Assembly (NCBI GenBank): GCA_947479815.1
Contig: CANKAT010000023.1
Coordinates: forward strand, 1 to 41,747
DNA length: 41,747 nt
From: Sphingobacteriaceae bacterium
GTDB lineage: Bacteria > Bacteroidota > Bacteroidia > Sphingobacteriales > Sphingobacteriaceae
Direction: 5' to 3'
A model generated the notes under the pieces. It was not told the DNA's origin. It made no database searches and worked only from the letters and a program-made list of their open reading frames with translations. The stretch's first letter is position 1. Every line of letters begins with the position of its first letter. The translations under genes were made by a program, and so were the position numbers. This document shows, one piece after another, positions 2,535 through 13,109 of this stretch.

Positions 2535-4733
2535 TTGAGGAATAAGATTTATTTAATTACACCGCCTTTTACGCAGCTTAATACTCCTTATCCGGCAACA
2601 GCATATTTAAAGGGATTTCTTAATACAAAAGGCATATCCTCGTATCAGTCAGATCTTGGCATTGAAGTTATTTTGGCTCTTTTTTCAAGATCCGGCCTAA
2701 CTGATCTGTTTGATCAGATTCAATTATCAAACACTGAAAAGAGTGAAAATGCCCAGCGTATAATTGCTTTAAAAGAACATTATATCACTAAAATTGATGC
2801 GGTGATTTCCTTTTTACAAGGCCATAACCCAACACTTTCTCACTTGATTTGCCAAGAAGATTTTCTTCCAGAGGCATCCCGGTTTGAACAGCTTGAGGAG
2901 CTTGAATGGGCATTTGGTACCATGGGTACTCAGGATAGGGCCAAGCATCTGGCTACACTTTTTTTAGAAGACATTTCTGATCTTATCGTAGAATGCGTTG
3001 ACGGTAATTTTGGTTTCAGCAGATATGCAGAACGTCTGGGGAGGTCGGCAGCTAGTTTTGATGAGCTTTATGATGCACTTCAACAGGAATTTACATTTAT
3101 AGATAAGCTTTTAATCAAGGTCCTGGAACAAAAGATGAAGGAGGTACTTCCTGAAATTGTTTCACTATCTGTACCCTTTCCCGGAAATTTATATGCATCT
3201 TTTCGTATTGCTCAATGGCTGAAGTTGGAATATCCGACTGTTAAAATTGCCATGGGCGGTGGTTTTCCAAATACTGAATTACGATCTGTGTCGGATGTAC
3301 GTGTTTTTGAGTTTATGGATTTTATTTGTTTGGATGATGGTGAAGCACCTGTTGAGTATCTTTGTGAGTTTCTTGATGGTAAAAGAAAAATAGCTGAACT
3401 AAAAAGAACATTTGCACTGATTGATGGAAAAGTTAGCTATTGCAATGGAAGTAAATTGCCTGATTACAAGCAATTTGAAACGGGTACTCCTGACTACAGC
3501 GATCTGTTTCTTGATCGTTATATTTCTGTAATTGAAGTTGTTAATCCGATGCATCGGATGTGGAGTGATGGAAGGTGGAATAAGCTTACAATGGCCCATG
3601 GATGTTACTGGGGTAAATGCACTTTCTGCGATATCTCACTCAATTATATTAAAATTTATGAGCCCATTGCAGCCTCTTTGCTTTGTGACAGGATGGAACA
3701 ATTGGTAGAGCAAACAGGGGAACGGGGCTTCCATTTTGTTGATGAAGCTGCACCTCCAGCCTTAATGCGCTCCTTGGCTCTTGAAATTTTGCGCCGTAAA
3801 TTAACGGTTACTTGGTGGACAAATATTCGGTTTGAAAAAAGCTTTACTAAAGAGCTTTGCCTATTGCTGAAAGCTTCTGGATGTATTGCTATTTCGGGCG
3901 GATTGGAGGTTGCCTCAGATCGTTTACTTGAACTGATACAAAAGGGTGTAACCGTAGAACAAGTTGCCCAAGTATGTCATAATTTTACGGATGCGGGTAT
4001 CATGGTTCATGCGTATTTGATGTATGGGTTCCCTACACAAACTGCTCAAGAAACTATTGATTCTTTAGAAATGGTCAGACAAATGTTTGACCTAGGAGTA
4101 TTACAGTCGGCTTTCTGGCATCAGTTTGCGATGACTGCTCACAGCCCTGTAGGTATGTATCCTGAACAATTCAAGGTAGAAAAGGCTTGTGGAACAACCG
4201 GAACTTTTGCTAATAATGATATAGTACACGTTGATAAGGTCGGTACCGATCATGAGCTGTTCAGCTATGGATTAAAGAAATCATTGTTTAATTATATGCA
4301 TGGCATTTGTTTCGATTATCCATTACAGGAATGGTTTGAACATAAAGTACCTAAGACAAAGGTTGACCCTGAGTTTATTATGAAATGTTTGTCAAAAGAA
4401 GAACCTTTTCTAATCAAACCTGATGCAAAAATTGTTTGGCTTGGGACCAAACCTCTGATTGATTATTTTTCGAAAAGTAAAAAGGGAAGGCAATGGGAAA
4501 TGGCAGAGTTAAAATTTTTTGATAAGAAAGATAGCTTTAGCATCCAGTTAGAAAAAGATCAGGCAGAATGGTTACTTAAATTTTTGCCACTCGCAGGTAT
4601 AGATCATGAAGAAGCAATGACCTTCAAAAAGGCAAAAGAAAATTTTGAAGCTGTATTAAATGTCGATTTTGAACCTTTTTGGTATGGCAAAGCAATTAAT
4701 AGATTAAGGCAGGGCGATCTGTTGGTGCTGTAA
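2535..4733 (+). CDS. B12-binding-type radical SAM protein
   Basis: A 732-residue protein of the large class of radical SAM enzymes with an N-terminal cobalamin-binding-like Rossmann domain. The N-terminus reads ITPPFTQLNTPYPATAYLKG, the usual opening of such domains, and is only in frame if translation starts at the TTG at 2535; no ATG lies near. The Rossmann part runs to about residue 290 (VSLSVPFPGNLYASF, IAMGGGFPNTE), but the base-off B12 motif DxHxxG is not visible. The 4Fe-4S cysteines are C357, C362 and C365 in GCYWGKCTFCD, spaced CX4CX2C rather than CX3CX2C. The TIM-barrel follows (WWTNIRFEK, AISGGLEVAS, HAYLMYGFPTQT). The substrate is unknown. It is followed by 332 bp without a gene. 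Confidence 0.87.
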   Translation: MRNKIYLITPPFTQLNTPYPATAYLKGFLNTKGISSYQSDLGIEVILALFSRSGLTDLFDQIQLSNTEKSENAQRIIALKEHYITKIDAVISFLQGHNPTLSHLICQEDFLPEASRFEQLEELEWAFGTMGTQDRAKHLATLFLEDISDLIVECVDGNFGFSRYAERLGRSAASFDELYDALQQEFTFIDKLLIKVLEQKMKEVLPEIVSLSVPFPGNLYASFRIAQWLKLEYPTVKIAMGGGFPNTELRSVSDVRVFEFMDFICLDDGEAPVEYLCEFLDGKRKIAELKRTFALIDGKVSYCNGSKLPDYKQFETGTPDYSDLFLDRYISVIEVVNPMHRMWSDGRWNKLTMAHGCYWGKCTFCDISLNYIKIYEPIAASLLCDRMEQLVEQTGERGFHFVDEAAPPALMRSLALEILRRKLTVTWWTNIRFEKSFTKELCLLLKASGCIAISGGLEVASDRLLELIQKGVTVEQVAQVCHNFTDAGIMVHAYLMYGFPTQTAQETIDSLEMVRQMFDLGVLQSAFWHQFAMTAHSPVGMYPEQFKVEKACGTTGTFANNDIVHVDKVGTDHELFSYGLKKSLFNYMHGICFDYPLQEWFEHKVPKTKVDPEFIMKCLSKEEPFLIKPDAKIVWLGTKPLIDYFSKSKKGRQWEMAELKFFDKKDSFSIQLEKDQAEWLLKFLPLAGIDHEEAMTFKKAKENFEAVLNVDFEPFWYGKAINRLRQGDLLVL

Positions 4734-4807
4734 TTTTTTATTTTAGGATTTGCCATATTTTGTTTTAAACATAAATTAAAAATATTTCCATCAAACTTCC
4801 CGCAAAA

Positions 4808-4970
4808 CTAAAAAAAGCCCCAATATTTAACGTGTGCCTTAATTTTCATGTAGCGATAACAAGGATTTAGAGTTATAAATATTTTTTTTAGTTAATTAAA
4901 TTATTGATTTTCAATAATTTATATTTTAATAAAATCGAAATTAACCAACTGAGCGCAATTGAGATAGGTT
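4808..4970 (-). repeat. tRNA-derived repeat, copy A (most decayed)
   Basis: Copy A shares about 85-90 bp with copy B at near identity: a run of A's, the string gccccaatatttaac, then cttaattttcatgtagcga, a decayed tRNA 3' half (aaggatttagagttataa) and a T-rich stretch. Read on the minus strand the decayed part corresponds to TTCATAACCCTGAG of copy E as TTTATAACTCTAA. At 4943-4954 the plus strand reads aaccaactgagc, the reverse complement of the common tRNA D-arm sequence GCTCAGTTGGTT. That might be a leftover of a 5' tRNA half, but the flanking D stem is missing and the region also aligns loosely with the right arm of copy E. Confidence 0.62.
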
Positions 4971-4985
4971 TTTTCTTAAAAATTA

Positions 4986-5030
4986 ATTTTTTATTGTATT
5001 TATCATTTGATACCTAGTTATAATAGAATT
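4986..5030 (+). promoter_or_regulatory. Upstream element shared by both lipoprotein genes
   Basis: About 45 bp (ttttttatt, then tatcattt, ata, tagttata, agaat) are conserved at 5714-5758, about the same distance (35-40 bp) before the second lipoprotein start. Conservation of non-coding DNA at a fixed distance suggests a duplicated promoter. The AT-rich TAGTTATA block could be the -7 region, but I cannot fit the Bacteroidota TAnnTTTG consensus exactly. Confidence 0.4.
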
Positions 5031-5065
5031 TTAATGTAGATTACAGTACACTAAAAAAGAAAAAT

Positions 5066-5590
5066 ATGAAAAAACTAGCATTATGTTTTCTTGTCTCAGC
5101 ATCTTTGATTGCTTGTAACTCAAAACAAAACGAAACTACATCTAATACAGATGATGCAGCTATGGCTGATTTTAAAGAAAACTCAAAAATCATGGCTGAT
5201 GGTTTTGAAAATTTTTCAAAAAACGATATAGCTACTTTCAGTGCCTTTTTATCTGATACTGTTAAAGCACATGGTCCAGCTTATGGCGAAGAAGCACCAG
5301 CAAATAAAACAATTCATATACAAAGGCTTCAAGGTTTTCACACCATACTTTCTAACATAAAAGCTAACGATATTAAATTTTTACCCAGCGTTGATGAAGT
5401 TACTTTTAAACCGGATGGAGGTGTAAGAGTTTATGCTAGATGGACAGATGATGCAATTGCAAATGGAGCCAAAATTGAACACAAATTTTATGGTGTCTAT
5501 CAATTCAATAAGGATCATAAAATTGTGGATATCGATGAGTATATGGATGTTACTGGAGTTATAATGGCTGCAACTGCACCTAAAAAATAA
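5066..5590 (+). CDS. NTF2-like (SnoaL-type) lipoprotein, paralogue 1
   Basis: A 174-residue lipoprotein: the signal peptide MKKLALCFLVSASLIAC ends in the lipobox LIAC, so the cysteine at 17 is lipidated. After a Ser/Thr/Asn-rich linker, about residues 35-165 have the features of a SnoaL/NTF2-like cone: an opening helix (ENSKIMADGFENFSKNDIA), a Phe-rich loop, then long strands (VRVYARWTD, HKFYGVYQFN, IVDIDEYMDV). Such domains are small ligand-binding or structural pockets; no catalytic residues can be assigned. The signal peptide and start region are almost identical to those of the next gene, so the pair arose by duplication. It belongs to the module between tRNA-like repeats A and B. Confidence 0.83.
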   Translation: MKKLALCFLVSASLIACNSKQNETTSNTDDAAMADFKENSKIMADGFENFSKNDIATFSAFLSDTVKAHGPAYGEEAPANKTIHIQRLQGFHTILSNIKANDIKFLPSVDEVTFKPDGGVRVYARWTDDAIANGAKIEHKFYGVYQFNKDHKIVDIDEYMDVTGVIMAATAPKK

Positions 5591-5612
5591 TTTTAGTTTT
5601 AATTCATTTAAG

Positions 5613-5646
5613 TGTTCACAGTCGAATAATAGTGAACATTTCCATT
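5613..5646 (+). terminator. Weak hairpin after first lipoprotein gene
   Basis: TGTTCAC (5613-5619) pairs with GTGAACA (5632-5638), with a 12-nt loop and then tttcc and attttt. This may be a weak terminator of the first lipoprotein gene. The stem is only 7 bp and the T-tract is interrupted. Confidence 0.38.
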
Positions 5647-5713
5647 TTTCGAGCTTTGATTTAGATTTAAACTAAAAATACTTCAAGCAAACCTAACCTA
5701 AGGTTTAAAAGTT

Positions 5714-5758
5714 TATTTTTTATTATCTGTATCATTTTATAGATAGTTATATCAGAAT
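5714..5758 (+). promoter_or_regulatory. Upstream element, second copy
   Basis: Second copy of the element at 4986-5030, about 37 bp before the second lipoprotein start. It implies that each paralogue has its own promoter despite lying in tandem. Confidence 0.4.
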
Positions 5759-5795
5759 CCTAAGCCTAATTAATTACTTCTAAAAATTAAAAACC

Positions 5796-6311
5796 ATGAA
5801 AAAACTAGTATTATGTTTTCTTGTATCGGCATCAATGATTGCTTGTACAACCAAAGAAACAAAAACCGAAGCAAAAACTGAAACAACAGGCTCAATAACA
5901 ACAACTGGACCGGATGTGGATTTGATGAAAAACAGTTTCACCTATTTTGCGAATGGAGACTGGGCTAATCTTGCTTTATGCTATGCAGATTCTGCAAAGT
6001 CGTTTCATAATGTTTGGGCATCGAAATCTGACACGACAGTCGGGATGAGTGTTCAAAATATTATTGAAGTGTTTAAAAAGCAAAGAGAATTAATTGATGG
6101 CAATATTGAATTGGGAAGAAATATTTATGAAGTTGTAACAATGCCTGATGGTAACAAGTATGGTCATAGTTGGAATGAAATGTCTTGGACATCTAAAAAA
6201 GGAGTACCTGGGAAAATGGTAGTATTTAACTCTTTCGGGTTTAATAAAGATGGTAAACTTACCTTCAATTGGCCTATTTATGATACTAAGGATGTTGTAA
6301 ATCTTAAGTAA
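5796..6311 (+). CDS. NTF2-like lipoprotein, paralogue 2
   Basis: A 171-residue lipoprotein with the signal peptide MKKLVLCFLVSASMIAC, nearly identical to paralogue 1, and a lipobox MIAC. A Lys/Glu/Thr linker follows, then a domain with the SnoaL/NTF2-like plan: helix (LMKNSFTYFANGDWANLALCY), the motif DSAKSFHNVW, and strands ending in VVFNSFGFNKDGKL. The mature domains of the two paralogues have diverged strongly while the signal peptides have not, which suggests selection or gene conversion at the 5' end. A good terminator follows at 6341. No function can be assigned beyond a membrane-anchored periplasmic or outer-membrane pocket protein. Confidence 0.83.
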   Translation: MKKLVLCFLVSASMIACTTKETKTEAKTETTGSITTTGPDVDLMKNSFTYFANGDWANLALCYADSAKSFHNVWASKSDTTVGMSVQNIIEVFKKQRELIDGNIELGRNIYEVVTMPDGNKYGHSWNEMSWTSKKGVPGKMVVFNSFGFNKDGKLTFNWPIYDTKDVVNLK

Positions 6312-6340
6312 TTAATATGTTTTAAGTTTTAAAAAATACG

Positions 6341-6374
6341 AAGAGGCCTCTAGGAATAGGGGCCTCTTTTTTTT
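6341..6374 (+). terminator. Rho-independent terminator after second lipoprotein gene
   Basis: AAGAGGCC (6341-6348) pairs with GGCCTCTT (6361-6368), followed by six more T's. This is a strong plus-strand terminator 30 bp past the stop codon. It lies just before tRNA-like repeat B. Confidence 0.85.
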
Positions 6375-6390
6375 CGAAAATTCAGATAAA

Positions 6391-6515
6391 AACAAAAAAA
6401 GCCCCAATATTTAACTTGTACCTTGATTTTCATGTAGCGATAACAAGGATTTAGAGTTATAAATATTTTTTTTAGTGAATTAAGGCGTTGATTTGTAATG
6501 GGTATATTTGACCCG
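6391..6515 (-). repeat. tRNA-derived repeat, copy B
   Basis: Almost identical to copy A over about 90 bp from the A-run through gccccaatatttaac, ccttgattttcatgtagcga, the decayed tRNA part (taacaaggatttagagttat) and the T-run. Its right arm then follows copies C-E instead (aaggcgttgatttgtaatg). On the minus strand the order is conserved right arm, decayed anticodon region, decayed T-arm, acceptor TCGCTA, then a former hairpin and a T-run. The first ATG of the next open frame (6498) lies inside this repeat. Confidence 0.7.
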
Positions 6516-6530
6516 CAAAATTATAATTCA

Positions 6531-7121
6531 ATGAATAGAATATTAAAATTTCTGATTTTAAGTTTATCTATATCTGTAGCCTTATATGCCCTAGTTGTAT
6601 ATACTTTCCTTGAACTTGGCATTGCAGTTCATCCTATGATGAAAAGTAATTTTCAAGCACACCCTATCGGTATTTACTTGCATATTTTTTCATCACTCAT
6701 CGCTTTAGCAATTGGACCTTTCCAATTCAATGAAAAGTTCAGAATAAATAAAATACAACTTCATCGAATGCTAGGCAAGATCTATCTGATGTGTGTATTA
6801 ATTGGAGGGCTTTCTGGTTTATATATGTCTCAATATTCATTTGGTGGCATGATTTCTCATTCAGGATTTTTTACCTTGGCCATACTATGGTTAGCCACCG
6901 GATATAAAGCGTATCATTCCATTAAAAATAAAAATGTCCAAGCGCATCAATATTGGATGTTTATCAATTTTGCACTCACATTTGCTGCAGTTACTTTACG
7001 AACGGGATTGGGATTGGGTTTTGGAAGCGGTATTCCATTTGAGGTATTTTATCCCTATTTAGCTTGGATTTGCTGGGTTCCGAATTTGCTTGTTGCTTTA
7101 GTTATTGCTGAAAGAAAATAA
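6531..7121 (+). CDS. DUF2306 membrane protein
   Basis: A multi-spanning inner-membrane protein of about 196 residues. I choose the ATG at 6531 rather than 6498, because the first 11 codons of the longer frame are repeat B sequence and the protein proper begins MNRILKFLILSLS. About five to six hydrophobic segments are visible, with conserved-looking histidines: HPIGIYLHIFSS, LHRMLGKIYL, SHSGFF and AHQYWMFINF. These are hallmarks of DUF2306, a family of four-helix-core membrane proteins of unknown function; the paired histidines could bind haem, which is only inference. It is the single gene of the module between repeats B and C. Confidence 0.82.
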   Translation: MNRILKFLILSLSISVALYALVVYTFLELGIAVHPMMKSNFQAHPIGIYLHIFSSLIALAIGPFQFNEKFRINKIQLHRMLGKIYLMCVLIGGLSGLYMSQYSFGGMISHSGFFTLAILWLATGYKAYHSIKNKNVQAHQYWMFINFALTFAAVTLRTGLGLGFGSGIPFEVFYPYLAWICWVPNLLVALVIAERK

Positions 7122-7140
7122 TTCAAAAAAAATTCGAAAC

Positions 7141-7315
7141 CCTCAGGCAAAAAAATAAAATAGAACTCTTCATTTAATGAATACCTTGATTTTTATGTAG
7201 CGAGAATAAGATCTCAGGTTTATGAAATTTTTAAAAAAAATTAAGGCTTTGATTAGTAATGAGCTACATTTTTTAAAAACCGAAATTAATCGTTTCTACC
7301 CGATTTGAAAGTTAG
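7141..7315 (-). repeat. tRNA-derived repeat, copy C
   Basis: Starts with cctcaggcaaaaaa, shared with copy D. A small hairpin (TTCAT at 7169, ATGAA at 7177) stands where copies D and E have theirs. Then come ccttgatttttatgtagcgaga and a decayed tRNA 3' half; on the minus strand this is TTTCATAAACCTGAGAT, keeping the CAT anticodon and A37. The right arm (ttaaggctttgattagtaatgagctac, aaaccgaaattaatcg, acccgatttga) matches copy E. It lies in the 277-bp gap before the VCBS gene, which has no other feature I can name. Confidence 0.7.
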
Positions 7316-7398
7316 GGCATTCTTGGATCAAGATTAATATAATATTGAAAAATTCATATATTTAAATTGCTACCAATAGAGCACAATAAAATTATTAA

Positions 7399-8691
7399 AT
7401 GAAAAAGTTAATCTTTGCTTTTTGGGTATTATTTGGAATTTCTTGTACAAAAACAGATTCAATAACAACTACTCCCAGCACTCCAATAGTTGTTACTCCA
7501 ATAACTCCCCCGCCTTGTACTTTCACAACAATCTCTGAAATAAACAAAAAAACAAGCCATTATAAGAAGTATAATATACCTTTTTATGATTATTTTTTGA
7601 ATTCAAATTCTGAATATACTAAGTTATTTTTTTCAAGATCATTTATTGATTTGAATAAAAATTCTACTCCAGACTTAATCCTATCTTCAGTTTATTGGCC
7701 TGGGTATAAAAAAGGTGAGTTAATCTTAGTTGTAGATAATAAAGTTGAAAAGATTATTGAAAATTTTCAAATTCATTCAAGAAAAATGCTAATAGCTGAT
7801 TTCAATGGCGATAAACAAGATGATGCATTTTTTTTAGATCAAGGCTTAGATGTTAGTCCATATCCCGGTGGTTCAAATGATCTTATTTTATTTAATGGAA
7901 CATCAGTTCAGATTAAGTCCTTTCCAGATATTGGCATATTTCATGGGGGATGCGCGGGCGACATTGATAATGATGGTGATATTGATATATTTCCACTTTC
8001 TAATGGCAAACCAGAATTTTTACTAATAAACGATGGATCAGCTAATTTTACTAAAAAAGAGTTATTTGGAGGGATCGCACTGAATGAATATTTCCATTGT
8101 GAATTCTACGATCTAAATAAAGACGGAAATTTAGATTTGATAATTGGAGGCCATGAATGGAAAAGTTTTGCTTTTAAAAATTCACAATTAGGGGGTATTT
8201 ACGAGAATCATATTTTATGGGGAGATGGTAAAGGTAATTTTAGTTTTAGCAATTCATCTAAATTACCGACTTTGAATTTATGGGGAACAGTTACAGATTT
8301 TGACTTTTACGATTTAGATAATGATGGAACAGAAGAAATAATTGTATCAAGAACCGGTGGTAGCGATGGTTCGACAATGGATAATAACGGAGTTAAAGTC
8401 AAAAATTTTTACAACTACTTTAAAATACAAATTCTTAAAAAGAGTGGTTCTCAGTATATTGATTCATCTGTTCTTGATTATCCTTCAGGTTGGCCAGCTT
8501 CTGAATGGCTTGACTGGGTTGATGTATATGATCTAGATGGTGATTGTAATTTAGATATCATCCCCGATGACCAAGAATTAAATTACACTAGAACCTCAGC
8601 ATACCAAGCCATTAATGATTTAAAGAAATTTACGAATCTATACTTCAAGGGTAATGGAAAAGGTGGATTTAGTGTAACCTATAAAAAGTAA
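7399..8691 (+). CDS. FG-GAP/VCBS repeat lipoprotein
   Basis: A 430-residue lipoprotein: signal peptide MKKLIFAFWVLFGISC with lipobox GISC, then a Thr/Pro-rich linker (TTTPSTPIVVTPITPPP). The rest is a series of about six repeats with calcium-binding loops of the DxDxDGxxD kind: DLNKNSTPDL, DFNGDKQDDA, DIDNDGDIDI, DLNKDGNLDL, DLDNDGTEEI and DLDGDCNLDI. This is the integrin-like beta-propeller (FG-GAP/VCBS) fold, generally used for surface adhesion or protein-protein contact. No enzyme domain is fused. It is monocistronic in the module between repeats C and D, and its DNA is very A+T-rich, like the rest of the accessory zone. Confidence 0.88.
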   Translation: MKKLIFAFWVLFGISCTKTDSITTTPSTPIVVTPITPPPCTFTTISEINKKTSHYKKYNIPFYDYFLNSNSEYTKLFFSRSFIDLNKNSTPDLILSSVYWPGYKKGELILVVDNKVEKIIENFQIHSRKMLIADFNGDKQDDAFFLDQGLDVSPYPGGSNDLILFNGTSVQIKSFPDIGIFHGGCAGDIDNDGDIDIFPLSNGKPEFLLINDGSANFTKKELFGGIALNEYFHCEFYDLNKDGNLDLIIGGHEWKSFAFKNSQLGGIYENHILWGDGKGNFSFSNSSKLPTLNLWGTVTDFDFYDLDNDGTEEIIVSRTGGSDGSTMDNNGVKVKNFYNYFKIQILKKSGSQYIDSSVLDYPSGWPASEWLDWVDVYDLDGDCNLDIIPDDQELNYTRTSAYQAINDLKKFTNLYFKGNGKGGFSVTYKK

Positions 8692-8715
8692 AAATGTATT
8701 TCAATTTGATTAATA

Positions 8716-9138
8716 TCAATTCTTACAGTTTGCACTCTCTTTTTCAATTTTTTGTAGTAAAAAATCTTGTCCAAATGTGAGTTTCTTAGCTAATGGGCTA
8801 TTCGGTTCAATCACTCTCCAAAAAGGTGTGATTTGCTCTATATCTTCTCCTTGTAATAACTTTTCATAGTTTGCTTCTGCAACAATTCGTAAAAATATTC
8901 CTGTCGTTACCGGGCAAGTGTAGTCGGCATTATGCGCTAAAGCAAGGTCTTTCCGTAATGTTTTTATGTCTAGATGCTTTCCAATCTCAATTTCTTTAAT
9001 ATAGCTGTCAATGAGTTTTGGCGTTGCGATAAACATAGTGCTACCTGCTGGAATATCAGCAAAGTCAATATCAATTCGTTTTATTTTTGACTCTTTTTTT
9101 TCGTTCAATTTGTCAAGCCAACTTTTCTTTATTGCCAT
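8716..9138 (-). CDS. MGMT-like (alkyltransferase-fold) protein
   Basis: A 140-residue cytoplasmic protein. The frame opens at 9186, but the Met at 9138 (MAIKKSWLDKLNEKKESK) is the likely start since the preceding residues look non-coding. Residues about 80-130 contain YTCPVTTGIFLRIVAEA and ITPFWRVIEPNSPLAKKL, recognisable as the small Bacteroidota/archaeal MGMT family protein group related to the C-terminal DNA-binding domain of O6-alkylguanine-DNA alkyltransferases. The active-site PCHR of true alkyltransferases is absent; a CPVT stands at a different place. It is therefore probably not a classical repair enzyme, and may bind DNA. It is convergent with the VCBS gene, 24 bp apart. Confidence 0.72.
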   Translation of the reverse strand: MAIKKSWLDKLNEKKESKIKRIDIDFADIPAGSTMFIATPKLIDSYIKEIEIGKHLDIKTLRKDLALAHNADYTCPVTTGIFLRIVAEANYEKLLQGEDIEQITPFWRVIEPNSPLAKKLTFGQDFLLQKIEKESANCKN

Positions 9139-9464
9139 ATTATTTTTTGTAGTTCTAAAAATACAAAAAACTGAAAAACGGTGCAAAACCCTAACTCACT
9201 GATAGACAAAGAAAAAGCCCTGCAAAATGCAAGGCTTGTCCAGTGTGGCTCCCTCTTCTGAACTTGAACTAAGAAATGACAAAACCCTCAGGCAAAAAAC
9301 AAAAAAGACTCTACGATTTATCGTAAAGTCTTGATTATCAGTATATTGTGGAGCATAATCGAACTGCCGACCTCAGGGTATGAATATTTTTTGAGAAAAT
9401 GATGGCGTTGATTTGTAGTGAGTTATGTTTTCACAAAACCTAAATCAAATGATTTGGACCGAAT
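9139..9464. other. Gene-free gap with two tRNA relics
   Basis: The 326-bp gap between the MGMT-like gene and the first SRPBCC gene has no gene. It contains two consecutive tRNA-3'-end relics, each with its own minus-strand terminator hairpin: D' (9212-9280) and D (9285-9480). Confidence 0.65.
9212..9280 (-). repeat. Second-type tRNA 3' relic with terminator (D')
   Basis: On the minus strand the sequence TTAGTTCAAGTTCAGAAGAG followed by GGAGCCACA looks like a decayed T-arm (loop TTCAAGT) and acceptor end. It is followed by a hairpin (AAGCC, TGCA, loop aaa, TGCA, GGCTT at 9215-9237) and a T-run. The acceptor end differs from TCTCGCTA of copies E and F, so this would come from another tRNA. The stems are imperfect and the anticodon arm cannot be read with confidence. 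Confidence 0.45.
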
Positions 9465-9480
9465 TCAGGGGTTGTTTTCC
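9285..9480 (-). repeat. tRNA-derived repeat, copy D
   Basis: Contains ccctcaggcaaaaaac, then a hairpin at 9307-9330 (GACT-c-TACGAT, loop tt, ATCGTA-a-AGTC) that with the six A's before it makes a good minus-strand terminator. Next is ttgattatca and a tRNA-like 3' half (9346-9384): minus-strand TTCATACCCTGAGGTC, a T-loop TTCGATT, and acceptor GCTCCACA. The right arm (attttttgagaaaatgatgg, cgttgatttgta) matches copy E almost base for base. Its far end covers the last codons of the SRPBCC gene (stop at 9465-9467). Confidence 0.75.
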
Positions 9481-9935
9481 TCACAAACTTCTTTGAGTTT
9501 ATTTAGCGCCTTTGGCCATGAATCATTCATGTATTCAGTTAAATCTTCTGTGAGGCCAACTAATTCAACTGCAATATCCGTAACACCATTATTTTCTTGG
9601 AACGTATAATTTTCAAATCCATTAGCCCATTTTTCGACTTCTGGACCAGATGTTATCTCAATATTCGATTGTACCAGTCCATAATGGCGTATTGAGATGT
9701 ATTTATTTGTGATGTTATCTGCAATTTCCGAAACCATACCTCCCTTGTTGCCTTTCTTATCAAATCCTACAAATAACATTTTGCTTCCTTTACTCCAATT
9801 CCCCTCATAGGTAGATGTTGGATTAAACATAGCGGTCCACTGCTCGTAAGTTGATTTTTTACTAATACCAAGCATTAAATCATAAATCTTATTGACTGGC
9901 GCATTTATTTTGATTGTGTATTGTAATTTATTCAT
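9465..9935 (-). CDS. SRPBCC (START/AHSA1-like) protein 1
   Basis: A 156-residue cytoplasmic protein with the SRPBCC helix-grip layout: an N-terminal strand (LQYTIKINAPVNKIYDLML), the middle sheet (GSKMLFVGFDKKGNKGGMVSEI, KYISIRHYG) and the long C-terminal helix (YMNDSWPKALNKLKEVCEE). The family covers AHSA1-like proteins and polyketide-cyclase-like ligand binders; the ligand cannot be told from sequence. Its start lies 10 bp after the stop of the other SRPBCC gene, so the two form an operon read leftward. The final codons lie within the conserved right arm of repeat D, and a related string (gttttcctcacac) recurs at the end of repeat E, which suggests that element E once abutted a similar gene. 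Confidence 0.85.
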   Translation of the reverse strand: MNKLQYTIKINAPVNKIYDLMLGISKKSTYEQWTAMFNPTSTYEGNWSKGSKMLFVGFDKKGNKGGMVSEIADNITNKYISIRHYGLVQSNIEITSGPEVEKWANGFENYTFQENNGVTDIAVELVGLTEDLTEYMNDSWPKALNKLKEVCEENNP

Positions 9936-9945
9936 TTTGTAAAAA

Positions 9946-10353
9946 TTATTGTTCGATATAATTTTTGAAATTATCTAAAATCATTTGCCAGCCTGTTTGT
10001 TGCATTTCTTCAGGATTTTCTTGCTCTGGTTCAAATTCCTCTGTAACTATAGTTCTTGTATCCGAGGAATCAAAAGTTACTTTCATTTTACGACCATCAC
10101 CTAATATAATTTCAATACCCTTTTCAATTTCAATTTTTTCATACGTACCCCAAAAATCAAAACTCATTGAATTGTCTTTGGCTGACATAATATAATGGAA
10201 TTCACCCCCTACTACTAAATTATTAGTAGCATTAGGACAATGCCATTCTGAACTAGCAAAATTCCAATTTTTTATATGCTCTTCTTTAGTCCAAGACTCC
10301 CATACTTTACTGAGAGGAGCATTTATTATTGATTCTACTTTTATTAAGTTCAT
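9946..10353 (-). CDS. AHSA1/SRPBCC-domain protein 2
   Basis: A 135-residue SRPBCC protein of the AHSA1 C-terminal type. The open frame extends to 10425, but the Met at 10353 (MNLIKVESIINAPLSKVWESW) matches the normal start of the family; the longer version adds a hydrophobic stretch derived from the repeat-E flank. Family features are the opening APLSKVWESWTKEEHIKNW, the mid-strand GGEFHYIMSAKDN, the turn FDFWGTYEKIE, and the C-terminal helix QQTGWQMILDNFKNYIEQ. These proteins have a hydrophobic cavity and often occur in stress-linked operons in Bacteroidota. It is first in the two-gene operon; repeat E with its minus-strand hairpin lies just upstream, so the promoter must lie in or next to that repeat. 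Confidence 0.86.
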   Translation of the reverse strand: MNLIKVESIINAPLSKVWESWTKEEHIKNWNFASSEWHCPNATNNLVVGGEFHYIMSAKDNSMSFDFWGTYEKIEIEKGIEIILGDGRKMKVTFDSSDTRTIVTEEFEPEQENPEEMQQTGWQMILDNFKNYIEQ

Positions 10354-10406
10354 TGATATTGATTTTAAAAAGCAAAGAAATATTAAAATTTGGTAAATAA
10401 TGAATT

Positions 10407-10625
10407 CCTCACGCAAAAATATCAATTGACCAACGATTTAACGTGAGTCCTTGATTTTCATATAGCGAGACCGGGATTTGAGCCTGCCGCAGGCAGGCCC
10501 GGGAACTCAGGGTTATGAAGATTTTTTGAGAAAATGAAGGCGTTGATTTGTAAAGCGTTATGTTTTTACAAAACCGAAATAAATCGATTTGACCCGATTT
10601 GAGGGTGTGTGTGTGTTTTCCTCAC
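10407..10625 (-). repeat. tRNA-derived repeat, copy E (best-preserved long copy)
   Basis: Order on the plus strand: cctcacgcaaaaa; a hairpin near 10428-10449; ccttgattttcat; a tRNA-like 3' half (10463-10519); then the conserved right arm (attttttgagaaaatgaagg, cgttgatttgtaa, gttatgtttttacaaaaccg, cgatttgacccgatttgagg). On the minus strand the tRNA part reads TTCATAA (anticodon loop, CAT), CCCTGAG, a T-arm CCGGG/CCCGG interrupted by a palindrome, and the acceptor TCTCGCTA. The 5' anticodon strand CAGGG is absent: homology to tRNA stops at the anticodon loop. The rest of the 352-bp gap (10354-10705) holds no gene. Confidence 0.82.
10482..10498. repeat. Palindrome inserted in the T-loop of copy E
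   Basis: GCCTGCC (10482-10488), loop GCA, GGCAGGC (10492-10498). It sits exactly between the two halves of the T-arm stem, splitting the T-loop that is TTCAAAT in copy F. The GCA loop is also seen in the palindromes at 37942 and 39268. Confidence 0.75.
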
Positions 10626-10705
10626 ACATAGTTTTATAGAATGAAAAGTAATTAAAGGCAATGTTATACCTTTAGATAATCCGTAAAGGATTTATAAAAA
10701 AATTT

Positions 10706-11272
10706 ATGAGAAATAAAACGTACTTTTTTCCTAGTGTGATTATTTTGTTAACAGTAGTATTCTATTTTACTGTAGAAGCACAACAAAAAAATATCACTTT
10801 TCGAACTAAGTTTTCTGGTGAATGGAAATCTAAAGAGCCAATAAGTATAGGCGGAAATATTTTTTGCTCCTATATGGATGGTGATCGTATGAATTCAAAA
10901 ACAATGAAAATAGTAGAGGATCAAAATTTTCTAACTATAGAAAATCCAAAATCGAATCCAAACACTAATAAGAGCCGAGAGAAGCTGATCATAGACGGTA
11001 AAGAAAGCCGAATAAATCATGGCCAAGGAAACGAAAAGAAGTCAACTGTAAAGTTATCAGCTGACGGAAAAACTATGACAATTAAATCAATTGTATACTT
11101 TATGACTGCTACTCCTTACCATGTAAATGTGATGAAAAAAGCATTTACTAATGTAACAGAGGTTTGGAAGTTGAGTCATGATGGCAAGTCTATTACTGTT
11201 CAATCCATTGCGAAATCCAATATATGGGGTGGCGAGCGTTCCTGGAAGACCGTATTCTACAAAACCAATTAA
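10706..11272 (+). CDS. Exported protein of unknown function
   Basis: A 188-residue protein with an N-terminal signal peptide or anchor (YFFPSVIILLTVVFYFTVEAQ, cleavage possible after AQ at about residue 26). I do not recognise the family. The mature part consists of alternating short strands: FSGEWKSKEPISIGGNIF, LIIDGKESRI, TVKLSADGKTMTIKSIVYF, VTEVWKLSHDGKSITVQSIA and SWKTVFYK. The repeated pattern of LSxDGKxxTI strands suggests a lipocalin-like or small beta-barrel fold that might bind a ligand; this is inference. It is the single gene between repeats E and G. Confidence 0.72.
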   Translation: MRNKTYFFPSVIILLTVVFYFTVEAQQKNITFRTKFSGEWKSKEPISIGGNIFCSYMDGDRMNSKTMKIVEDQNFLTIENPKSNPNTNKSREKLIIDGKESRINHGQGNEKKSTVKLSADGKTMTIKSIVYFMTATPYHVNVMKKAFTNVTEVWKLSHDGKSITVQSIAKSNIWGGERSWKTVFYKTN

Positions 11273-11280
11273 TATTAAAA

Positions 11281-11325
11281 AGCTTCTCACTTTCGTGACA
11301 GGCTTTGTAGCGAGACCGGGATTGC
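11281..11325 (-). repeat. Truncated tRNA 3' end with terminator (copy G)
   Basis: The string ggctttgtagcgagaccgggatt (11301-11323) is the same as at 11490-11512 in copy F, then homology stops in the T-loop. Left of it a stem (AAGCTTCTCAC with GTGACAGGCTT, imperfect) occupies the place of copy F's terminator, with A's beyond. So G is a second copy of the tRNA 3' end plus its native terminator, 189 bp from F and in the same orientation. Confidence 0.7.
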
Positions 11326-11380
11326 CAGCTTCGTTTCAAACGCCGTCATCCCAACAAGTTTGATTTACCCAAAGCCTTTC

Positions 11381-11414
11381 AAACAATTCGCGATGCGAAT
11401 CGTTTGTCTTTTTT
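11381..11414 (+). terminator. Hairpin with T-run between copies G and F
   Basis: AAACaATTCGC (11381-11391), loop GAT, GCGAATcGTTT (11395-11405), one mismatch, then gtctttttt. It would work as a plus-strand terminator for the unknown exported protein 109 bp upstream. Confidence 0.55.
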
Positions 11415-11459
11415 AACGCTCATCCGCTCAATCAAGCGAGCTTGTTTCGCAGCTGCGCA

Positions 11460-11495
11460 TTAAAAAAGCCTTCCCGAGAAAATTGGGAAGGCTTT
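11460..11495 (-). terminator. Strong terminator beside the tRNA relic F
   Basis: AAAGCCTTCCC (11465-11475) pairs perfectly with GGGAAGGCTTT (11485-11495) around a 9-nt loop; on the minus strand it is followed by six T's. It lies one or two bases past the 3' end of tRNA relic F, where a tRNA gene terminator belongs. Confidence 0.88.
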
Positions 11496-11496
11496 G

Positions 11497-11543
11497 TAGC
11501 GAGACCGGGATTTGAACCCGGGACCTCAGGGTGATGAACCCTG
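11497..11543 (-). pseudogene. tRNA(CAT) 3' half, copy F
   Basis: On the minus strand this is a perfectly folded 3' part of a tRNA: anticodon arm CAGGG-TTCATCA-CCCTG (anticodon CAT; Met, fMet or Ile2 type), variable loop AGGTC, T-arm CCGGG-TTCAAAT-CCCGG, and acceptor strand TCTCGCT with discriminator A. The 5' acceptor strand (should be AGCGAGA) and the D-arm are missing: upstream is only ttttttaggtaa and then the stop codon of the peptidase gene. Position 37 is C, where copies C and E have the normal A. The gene cannot yield a normal tRNA as it stands. An adjoining terminator survives. Confidence 0.85.
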
Positions 11544-11555
11544 TTACCTAAAAAA

Positions 11556-13109
11556 CTAGTTCACACCACCTTTACGGGTTGGCTGGCGTACAGCTGGCCA
11601 GCTCATCGGTTGACCAGTACGTGAGTTGATCGGTAAAATACTTTTTTCGTTTGATGATTTTGCCGGATCTTCACTGGCCATATAGGCTAATATTGCAGTT
11701 AGAATGGCATTATTCTGTACATCATCAAATACAATTTTATCATAGGTATCGCGGTTGGTATGCCAAGTATAAGTTCCATAAGCCCAGCTTAATGAGCTTA
11801 AAGAGAAGGCTGGAGCACCTGCAGCAACAAAGGAGGCATAGTCAGATCCACCACCACCTGGAGTTCCAGGGAAAGTGCTTTTGATCTCTGAGCGAATGTT
11901 GCTAGGTACCGGATTAAGCCATCTGTTCAGGTAATCATAGGCATGTAAAAATCCTTGTCCTGAAAGATCAACCACCCTGCCGGTTCCATTATCCTGATTG
12001 AATACAGCCTGAATATTTTTTACGATCTCCGGATGATCAGCAATAAATGCTCTTGAACCATTTAAGCCCTGCTCTTCACTGCCCCAATGACCAACAAGGA
12101 TCGTTCTTTTTGGATTAGGATACATCTTTTTCAATATCCTCATCGCTTCAAGCATAGTGATCGTTCCAGTTGCATTATCTGTTGCTCCTGTTCCGCCATC
12201 CCATGAATCAAAGTGGGCTGAAAGAATTACATATTCTTCTGGTTTTTCAGTTCCTTTGATCTCGGCTATTGTATTGAATGTAGGTACCATGCCCAGGTCT
12301 TTTGAATCTGCACGTATACTGATCTTTGGTTTTATTCCTGTTTCAGTTAAACGGTACAACATTCCATAATCTTCTAATGATATATCTACGGTTGGTACCT
12401 TTGTGCTTTGTGCACTAAATATTTTATTGACACCAAAACCTGCCGACCAATTGGAGGCAATGATGCCCACTGCACCTGCTTTTTCAAGAGCCAATGCAAG
12501 ATTTTTTGAATTTAATCCGGTTTTGTTCATCCGGTTTCTCCAGTCTGCGCTTGCCTTTGAACGTTCAGTTTTCATCTTTTCAAATGATTCTTTGGTTGCA
12601 AATTCTTCCCAGTTTTTATCATCTCTGCCTGTTGGCTGCTGCATAGATATCATCACAAACTTTCCCTTTACAGCTGGAAGCCAGTTTTGAAAAGCAATTG
12701 AATCGGCAACATCTGCCAGTATAATTGTTTCAGCTGTAACTGCTTTACCAGACGTTGATGGGCTCCAGGCCAACTGCATGCCCTCTAAAGATTCTACCCT
12801 TGGATGGACTAGGTCGATATGGGTAATTCCTCGTTCCCATCCACGCCATTCACCCCATTGTTCATTCTTTGCAGCTATGCCCCAACTTTGGTATTTTGAA
12901 ACCGCCCAATCATGAGCCTGCTTCATTTGTGGTGTTCCAACAAGCCTTGGACCAATGCCATCAGTTAGCTCCTGAGCAAGTTTTTTTAATTGTGAGTTTT
13001 CACTTGCTTCTTTTATAATTCCCTGTACAATAGGATCTTTACTTTGTGCATAAATGAGGTTTTCTGAAAGTATAAGGCAACAGGCAAATAGAATTAAATT
13101 TTTTTTCAT
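11556..13109 (-). CDS. M28 family zinc aminopeptidase with PA domain
   Basis: A 517-residue secreted metallopeptidase. The signal peptide is MKKNLILFACCLILSENLIYAQ. Residues about 110-265 form a PA (protease-associated) insert domain with GKFVMISMQQP and GAVGIIASNW. The catalytic M28 domain has all ligands: H and D in LSAHFDSWDGGTGATDN (second D bridging), the EE pair in HWGSEEQGLNGS, D in FNQDNGTGRV, and H in YTWHTNRDTYDKI. Such enzymes cleave N-terminal residues or dipeptides from peptides outside the cytoplasm. The stop codon lies 12 bp from the tRNA relic F; the relic's terminator probably also ends this transcript. Divergent from the CBM9-like gene. Confidence 0.92.
   Translation of the reverse strand: MKKNLILFACCLILSENLIYAQSKDPIVQGIIKEASENSQLKKLAQELTDGIGPRLVGTPQMKQAHDWAVSKYQSWGIAAKNEQWGEWRGWERGITHIDLVHPRVESLEGMQLAWSPSTSGKAVTAETIILADVADSIAFQNWLPAVKGKFVMISMQQPTGRDDKNWEEFATKESFEKMKTERSKASADWRNRMNKTGLNSKNLALALEKAGAVGIIASNWSAGFGVNKIFSAQSTKVPTVDISLEDYGMLYRLTETGIKPKISIRADSKDLGMVPTFNTIAEIKGTEKPEEYVILSAHFDSWDGGTGATDNATGTITMLEAMRILKKMYPNPKRTILVGHWGSEEQGLNGSRAFIADHPEIVKNIQAVFNQDNGTGRVVDLSGQGFLHAYDYLNRWLNPVPSNIRSEIKSTFPGTPGGGGSDYASFVAAGAPAFSLSSLSWAYGTYTWHTNRDTYDKIVFDDVQNNAILTAILAYMASEDPAKSSNEKSILPINSRTGQPMSWPAVRQPTRKGGVN

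Follow-up and report, generated by a model that had tools for sequence, protein, structure and literature searches.

Integrons are the textbook system by which single genes are moved as cassettes. Islands described at tRNA genes include the additive flexible genomic islands (fGIs) of Alteromonas (PMC4119200) and the islands of Methylophilaceae, which carry 20-bp tRNA-Lys repeats and range in size from 330 bp upward (PMC10872708); tycheposons are large cargo elements of 4-200 kb (PMC10872708), and composite islands of cis-mobilizable elements (CIMEs) hold either two or three elements measuring 1.2-13 kb or microCIMEs, which lack genes and measure 130-220 bp (PMC7563491). Here we analyze a contig of a Sphingobacteriaceae bacterium (GenBank assembly GCA_947479815.1, contig CANKAT010000023.1, positions 1 to 41,747), the whole stretch of 41,747 nucleotides being termed the window. 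It carries an old, decayed tandem array of non-autonomous small gene cassettes at positions 4742-11548 of the minus strand, read on that strand from junction F to junction A. According to our preferred reading, to which we assign a probability of roughly 0.85, these are integrase-less cassettes with a tRNA-Met attachment site (attP), moved by the tyrosine integrase of larger elements that have the same attP.

Seven minus-strand matches to a 240-bp model of the junction site were obtained in the window (A to F and a fragment, G; 20-192 bits). The model was built from 84 junctions of other genomes, so that the matches are independent of the window sequence, and the best score among 200 shuffles of the region was 6.3 bits. 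A preceding interpretation of the letters alone (the sequence-only reading) had described relics of the 3' half of a tRNA, all on the minus strand, between small unrelated genes, and the site-model matches bear this out. The tRNA homology indeed ends in the anticodon loop (CTTCATAA), as had been proposed; next comes a conserved arm, about 115 bp long, and a terminator hairpin lies on the other side. Its count of eight relics has to be lowered to six (A-F) plus fragment G, and the stretch termed D' is not a tRNA relic, as it reads as the last codons of the integrase open reading frame (ORF; reverse complement TAAGAAATGA) plus sequence also found beside halves at other loci. ARAGORN found 0 tRNA genes in the window. 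Across its own genome (3.2 Mb, 157 contigs) the repeat has no copy outside the array, and the genome-wide scatter that would have spoken against cassettes is thus not seen. In nine congeners, which lack the whole inserted array, the two flanking host genes identified by Pfam and congener comparison, encoding a radical SAM protein (2535-4733, plus strand) and an M28 peptidase (11556-13109, minus strand), are direct neighbors; the 6.8 kb are therefore an insertion at a secondary, non-tRNA site. The proposed arrival of integrase-less cassettes at one tRNA is supported by arrays elsewhere, which lie at intact tRNA-Met genes, whereas the window array lies between two protein genes.

The consensus of the 84 sequences runs from CTGCGTGAGG-arm-AAAAAAT through CTTCATAACCCTG to AGGTCCCGGGTTCAAATCCCGGTCTCGCTAC-terminator-TGCGTGAGG. 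Its core, TTCATAACCCTGAGG, equals the anticodon loop and 3' stem of elongator tRNA-Met, and the sequence past the core is the 3' half of this tRNA with its terminator, read as such because the same terminator trails intact tRNA-Met genes in related genomes. The composition of the unit is revealed by a lone insertion of about 0.6 kb in one genome (G011), which splits a palindrome after yidC in the form CGCTGACAGGG-TTCATAACCCTGAGG...half...gene...arm...CTTCATAACCCTG-TCAGCG; in five congeners the palindrome is uninterrupted (e.g. AACGCTGACAGGGTTTTGAACCCTGTCAGCGTT). The unit is therefore half (tRNA-Met 3' half and terminator), cargo and arm, spanning from a half to the next arm, and the relics of the window are joints between units. 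Since a full relic joins two neighboring units as arm, CTTCATAACCCTG and half, each cassette carries one complete attP. Of 70 sites, about 60 have the GTGAGG repeat at -100 and 32 have it at +85 to +120; attP is bordered on one or both outer sides by short direct repeats TGCGTGAGG, which may represent arm-type sites. The terminators after the tRNA half occur in at least three versions (ATGAAAATCAAGGACTT..., AAAGCCTCTCACG..., AGTGTTAT...) across junction sites in many loci, and the halves therefore form subfamilies. In a handful of cassettes, the same core and tRNA half adjoin a second conserved arm of unrelated sequence (GGGAGCAACAACATTTCTAACTAATTGAAAATTAAACAGATGTGATATATTCGTTGTC; type II arm loci G324:C7, at 32060 of the reversed join L235-L237; G336:C89, at 9414 reversed; L294:1618; L181:6876; and L153:2947-3054), which suggests a second integrase specificity for the same target.

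Intact tRNA-Met(CAT) genes start the arrays in G324, G325, G334, G333, G332 and others, and at these array starts the half is contiguous with the tRNA 5' half. The order pth, FAA hydrolase-like gene, tRNA-Met (gene names read from sequence, with no family search) is common to G324, G325, G332, G333, G330 and G331. Congeners of the window's genome contain single cassettes, about 0.6-1.1 kb in size, that split terminator palindromes mimicking the Met anticodon stem-loop: the palindrome center CAGGGTTCATAACCCTG matches the stem-loop CAGGATTCATAACCCTG except for one base. A second lone unit, in G017, adjoins a MazG-like gene; at the corresponding place the palindrome is empty in G006 and imperfect in G011. 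Gene ends in the genus repeatedly carry palindromes of the form AACGCTGACAGGGTTNNNAACCCTGTCAGCGTT (L085 in G006:C10, L095 in G011:C158, L300-L304, L323), and such gene-end palindromes (e.g. GACAGGGTTCATAACCCTGTC, AACGCTGACAGGGTTNNNAACCCTGTCAGCGTT) can serve as secondary targets. A full tRNA with the acceptor TCTCGCTA, which the sequence-only reading had proposed to look for, is not present among the tRNA-Met genes of the window's own genome, whose elongator tRNA-Met ends in CCCCGCTAC, while intact tRNA-Met genes with the 3' end TCTCGCTA are present in other Bacteroidota. After the own elongator gene (G000:C50, about 10300-10510; L024, L100) comes a short repeat of the gene's 3' end (ACTGCTCCCCGCTACAAAAAGC), partly seen in G008 as well and possibly a trace of an older integration.

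Scanning an arm-derived pattern over 84,980 species genomes yielded 103 stretches and, upon removal of chance matches, 53 assemblies with the site. Nearly all are Bacteroidota metagenome-assembled genomes (MAGs), mostly from freshwater, many of their names citing lakes, ponds and rivers; the family labels, which are rough bin labels, include Chitinophagaceae, Sphingobacteriaceae, Cyclobacteriaceae, Cytophagaceae, Saprospiraceae and others. Twenty genomes have as many as 18 site matches apiece, mostly located on a single contig or a few contigs, and adjacent site pairs share one orientation in 104 of 104 cases. The approximately 75 cassettes have a median length of 2.0 kb (range about 0.6-23 kb), 33 of 71 contain exactly one ORF of at least 80 aa, and most have intact att arms and halves with no integrase. 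In G324, the array extends over 40 kb from an intact tRNA-Met gene, and the further a junction lies from the tRNA, the lower its score (Spearman -0.72, P 0.03; nine sites of one array), which would be expected were new cassettes to enter beside the tRNA. Cargo genes encode TonB receptors, alpha/beta hydrolases, short-chain dehydrogenases, Fic, HepT/nucleotidyltransferase, AHSA1 and FG-GAP proteins and many of no named family, with few matches to defense models.

A tyrosine recombinase with the same attachment site, which the sequence-only reading had suggested looking for, was found in other genomes. An integrase of the 422-aa type is carried by four assemblies; it stands beside an intact tRNA-Met gene (ARAGORN) and its half in three of them (G333, G330, G331), and the same arm lies at the far end of the integrase element in two (G333 and L146). 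The order in G333 is tRNA-Met, half, three TGCGTGAGG repeats and the 422-aa integrase gene, which ends 17 bp from the modeled half, with the same arm 23 kb further on. The integrases of G330 and G331 occupy the same place, are 82% and 78% identical to that of G333, and are preceded by a partner gene of 90-126 aa with no Pfam match, possibly an excisionase. The compact contig L146 (5.9 kb) has the integrase gene and the arm at opposite ends. Three genomes have distant homologues (41-43%) elsewhere; R262, R369, H390 and Y400 are invariant among seven homologues, and a Cys-rich N-terminal segment is conserved. A sequence search for a relative of solved structure found none. Ten proteins of the incompletely assembled integrase elements included a methylase with a weak ParB domain, an HTH_36 protein and a second recombinase, and no relaxase or coupling protein was among these ten. 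Searches of phage records and IMG/VR for relatives of site or integrase returned nothing but a phage tRNA-Met, and plasmid records searched with the site returned no relative. As separate observations, a minimal tyrosine recombinase of 189 aa (PF00589, MTTTIEKTSDYLTTDELKRLNRYF...) is found repeatedly within or close to integrase elements (L291:2241-2807; the G333:C16 element, L252/L253; L293:7442-8000) and abuts a partial half in G326, and two contigs of G330, C47 (L289) and C58 (L343), share 83 bp around tRNA-Met before they part into an integrase element and a cassette array, which may reflect population polymorphism or an assembly effect.

For 23 of 75 cassettes, cargo with 70-99% identity is present in another genome, and in 12 shared-cassette genome pairs the common part is bounded by sites at both sides, so that module boundaries coincide with the repeats. 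The AHSA1 cassette of the window (9385-10505) is 91% identical to the lone cassette G017:C115 (JAURKO010000024, a Daejeonella MAG), with both ends at sites; array contigs of Chitinophagaceae-labeled and other Bacteroidota MAGs carry cargo that is 86-89% identical to the DUF2306 cassette of the window. Together with the empty sites, the shared cassettes agree with the earlier expectation that individual modules would be present in some genomes and absent from others, the breakpoints lying at the core. They also bear on plain decay of CIMEs or integrative and mobilizable elements (IMEs), by which full-size elements would have accreted and each been deleted in place to one or two genes, leaving immobile small units. 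Integrase C-terminal stubs adjoin halves in integrase-less cassettes, the window's D cassette holds a 10-bp sequence matching the last integrase codons, integrase elements occupy the same position, and streptococcal CIMEs arise in this manner (PMC7563491). Yet the same small cassettes recur in different genomes and at different sites with both ends at att cores, single units of about 0.6-1.1 kb sit in secondary palindromes, and complete attP arms are conserved in the cassettes, rendering decay in place an unlikely account. Still less probable is a chromosomal integron or a cluster of attC sites lacking integron integrases (CALIN), in which IntI would move cassettes bounded by attC. Long arrays of single-gene cassettes in one orientation, most of them with no integrase linked, would fit, but the site contains a tRNA half, has repeats on both flanks and resembles a phage attP rather than attC, and the recombinase linked to it is a phage-type integrase that is extended at the N terminus. 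It matches integrase and XerD-like models of PHROGs and NCBIfam; XerD is its best NCBIfam match, the model that includes integron integrases being weaker and far below cut-off. Site and integrase being phage-type, we rejected the integron reading (no dedicated attC scan was run). A dispersed, transposing repeat of about 240 bp (arm-core-half), akin to miniature inverted-repeat transposable elements and with the genes not as cargo, is hardly credible: the junction is a conserved compact repeat, but this reading is contradicted by the G011 yidC insertion, isolated insertions having half and arm at opposite gene ends inside a split palindrome, as well as by the uniform orientation, the lack of copies elsewhere in the own genome and the halves continuous with tRNA 5' halves at array starts.

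Returning to integrase-mobilized cassettes, a cassette would exist as a circle with one attP of about 240 bp that runs from the left arm through the core TTCATAACCCTGAGG and the remainder of the tRNA-Met 3' half to the terminator. The tyrosine integrase of larger elements with the same attP would recombine it with the tRNA-Met anticodon stem-loop sequence or, alternatively, with terminator palindromes resembling it, and would thus probably mobilize the cassettes in trans. Each insertion would restore the tRNA 3' half and leave the site reusable, such that cassettes would accumulate in one orientation. The crossover point putatively lies in TTCATAACCCTG. On the simplest reading, cassettes are integrase-deleted relatives that keep the whole attP; they would have originated from integrase elements that lost the integrase, with 3' stubs kept, and gained cargo. 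Several points weigh against this proposal. The integrase scores 23.6 bits in Pfam, under the gathering cut-off of 27.1 bits, and its structure model is poor (predicted template modeling score, pTM, 0.37). The integrase was not found in the window's genome or in the searched congeners with cassettes; the array here may hence be inactive, and degeneration is seen in its oldest sites. With most genomes being fragmented MAGs, array lengths and the absence of integrases are uncertain, and no circular cassette, excision or recombination was observed in these data.

Along the window array, junctions E and D are well kept and A, B and F are weak; all junctions and cassettes described here are on the minus strand. 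F (11459-11545), the first half at one array end, consists of CAGGGTTCATCACCCTG, the tRNA 3' half and an alternative terminator (47 bits at 11459-11538; Rfam tRNA match of 32.6 bits at 11497-11570). G (11275-11323, 20 bits) is a fragment of a second half (CCCGGTCTCGCTAC and hairpin), next to a cargo gene of 188 aa without Pfam match (10706-11272, plus strand). E (10400-10641), the best-kept junction, has arm, core CTTCATAACCCTG and half and constitutes a near-complete attP-like site (192 bits, model positions 11-231). Then follow, with genes assigned by Pfam, the cassette at 9385-10505 with two AHSA1/SRPBCC-type genes (9946-10356 and 9465-9935, both minus strand), junction D (9277-9487, 146 bits) and the stub at 9260-9276, part of D', which, set against the 3' end of the integrase gene, reads as the terminal part of that ORF (TAAGAAATGA). 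The cassette at 7226-9385 encodes an FG-GAP repeat protein (7399-8691, plus strand) and a 156-aa protein of no named family (8716-9186, minus strand), and is followed by the decayed junction C (7135-7308, 73 bits), the single-gene cassette at 6464-7226 with a DUF2306 membrane protein (6498-7121, plus strand) and the decayed junction B (6384-6505, 42 bits). The cassette at 4881-6464 has two small plus-strand genes, one weakly SnoaL-like (5066-5590) and one without Pfam match (5796-6311). A (4789-4975, 45 bits) is the last, decayed junction; no arm was found to its left, between A and the host gene.

We lean, if only slightly, towards a general system of gene capture in Bacteroidota analogous to integrons, in which single-gene cassettes with a complete phage-type attP are collected at tRNA-Met and a shared tyrosine integrase shuffles them in trans from family to family, the arms falling into at least two classes that use different integrases on the same target. 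The data point to an independently built integron counterpart, mostly in freshwater Bacteroidota, made from a tRNA and a phage-type integrase; if true, it would account for much of the variable gene content in these lineages. The site provides a sequence signature searchable in any genome, and gene-by-gene transfer between families becomes testable with one integrase and one 240-bp site. A literature search, with most subscription journals and bioRxiv preprints outside its reach, found no description of such a system. As in integrons and CALINs, there is a primary site at one end with one-gene cassettes in one orientation (PMC11389934), and one integrase serving many cassettes is a likeness that we infer here (PMC11389934). 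Unlike in integrons, neither attC nor attI is seen here (no dedicated attC scan), and attP/attB at tRNA-Met are of phage type; the arrays look as if they work like integrons yet are not integrons. With tycheposons they share tRNA boundaries, a tyrosine recombinase, cargo genes and aquatic bacterial hosts (PMC10872708), but the units here are gene-cassette sized, judged against secondary descriptions of tycheposons. Additive fGIs likewise have a conserved tRNA target for variable cassettes and direct repeats of the tRNA 3' end; the tRNA is the repeated target in other genomes, with the window array itself at a non-tRNA site, and the location is the same across related genomes (pth, FAA hydrolase-like gene, tRNA-Met). 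The arrays here differ in their often single-gene cassettes, in a conserved attP of about 240 bp instead of a 20-bp tRNA tail, in cassettes common to genomes of different families and in the matching integrase identified. Tandem accretion of CIMEs, IMEs and integrative and conjugative elements (ICEs) also yields integrase-less att-flanked units, in tandem at one target and derived from integrase elements. Most cassettes have kept att sites and lost recombination genes, and G333, G330 and G331 have the integrase beside att and a restored tRNA, as in a tyrosine-integrase element at a tRNA gene; however, many units make up arrays that are tens of kb long, and among the few helper proteins examined no conjugation genes were recognized. 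The nearest described kinds are additive flexible islands and CIME accretion, from which these arrays are set apart by cassette size, unit number, the conserved attP and sharing between families.

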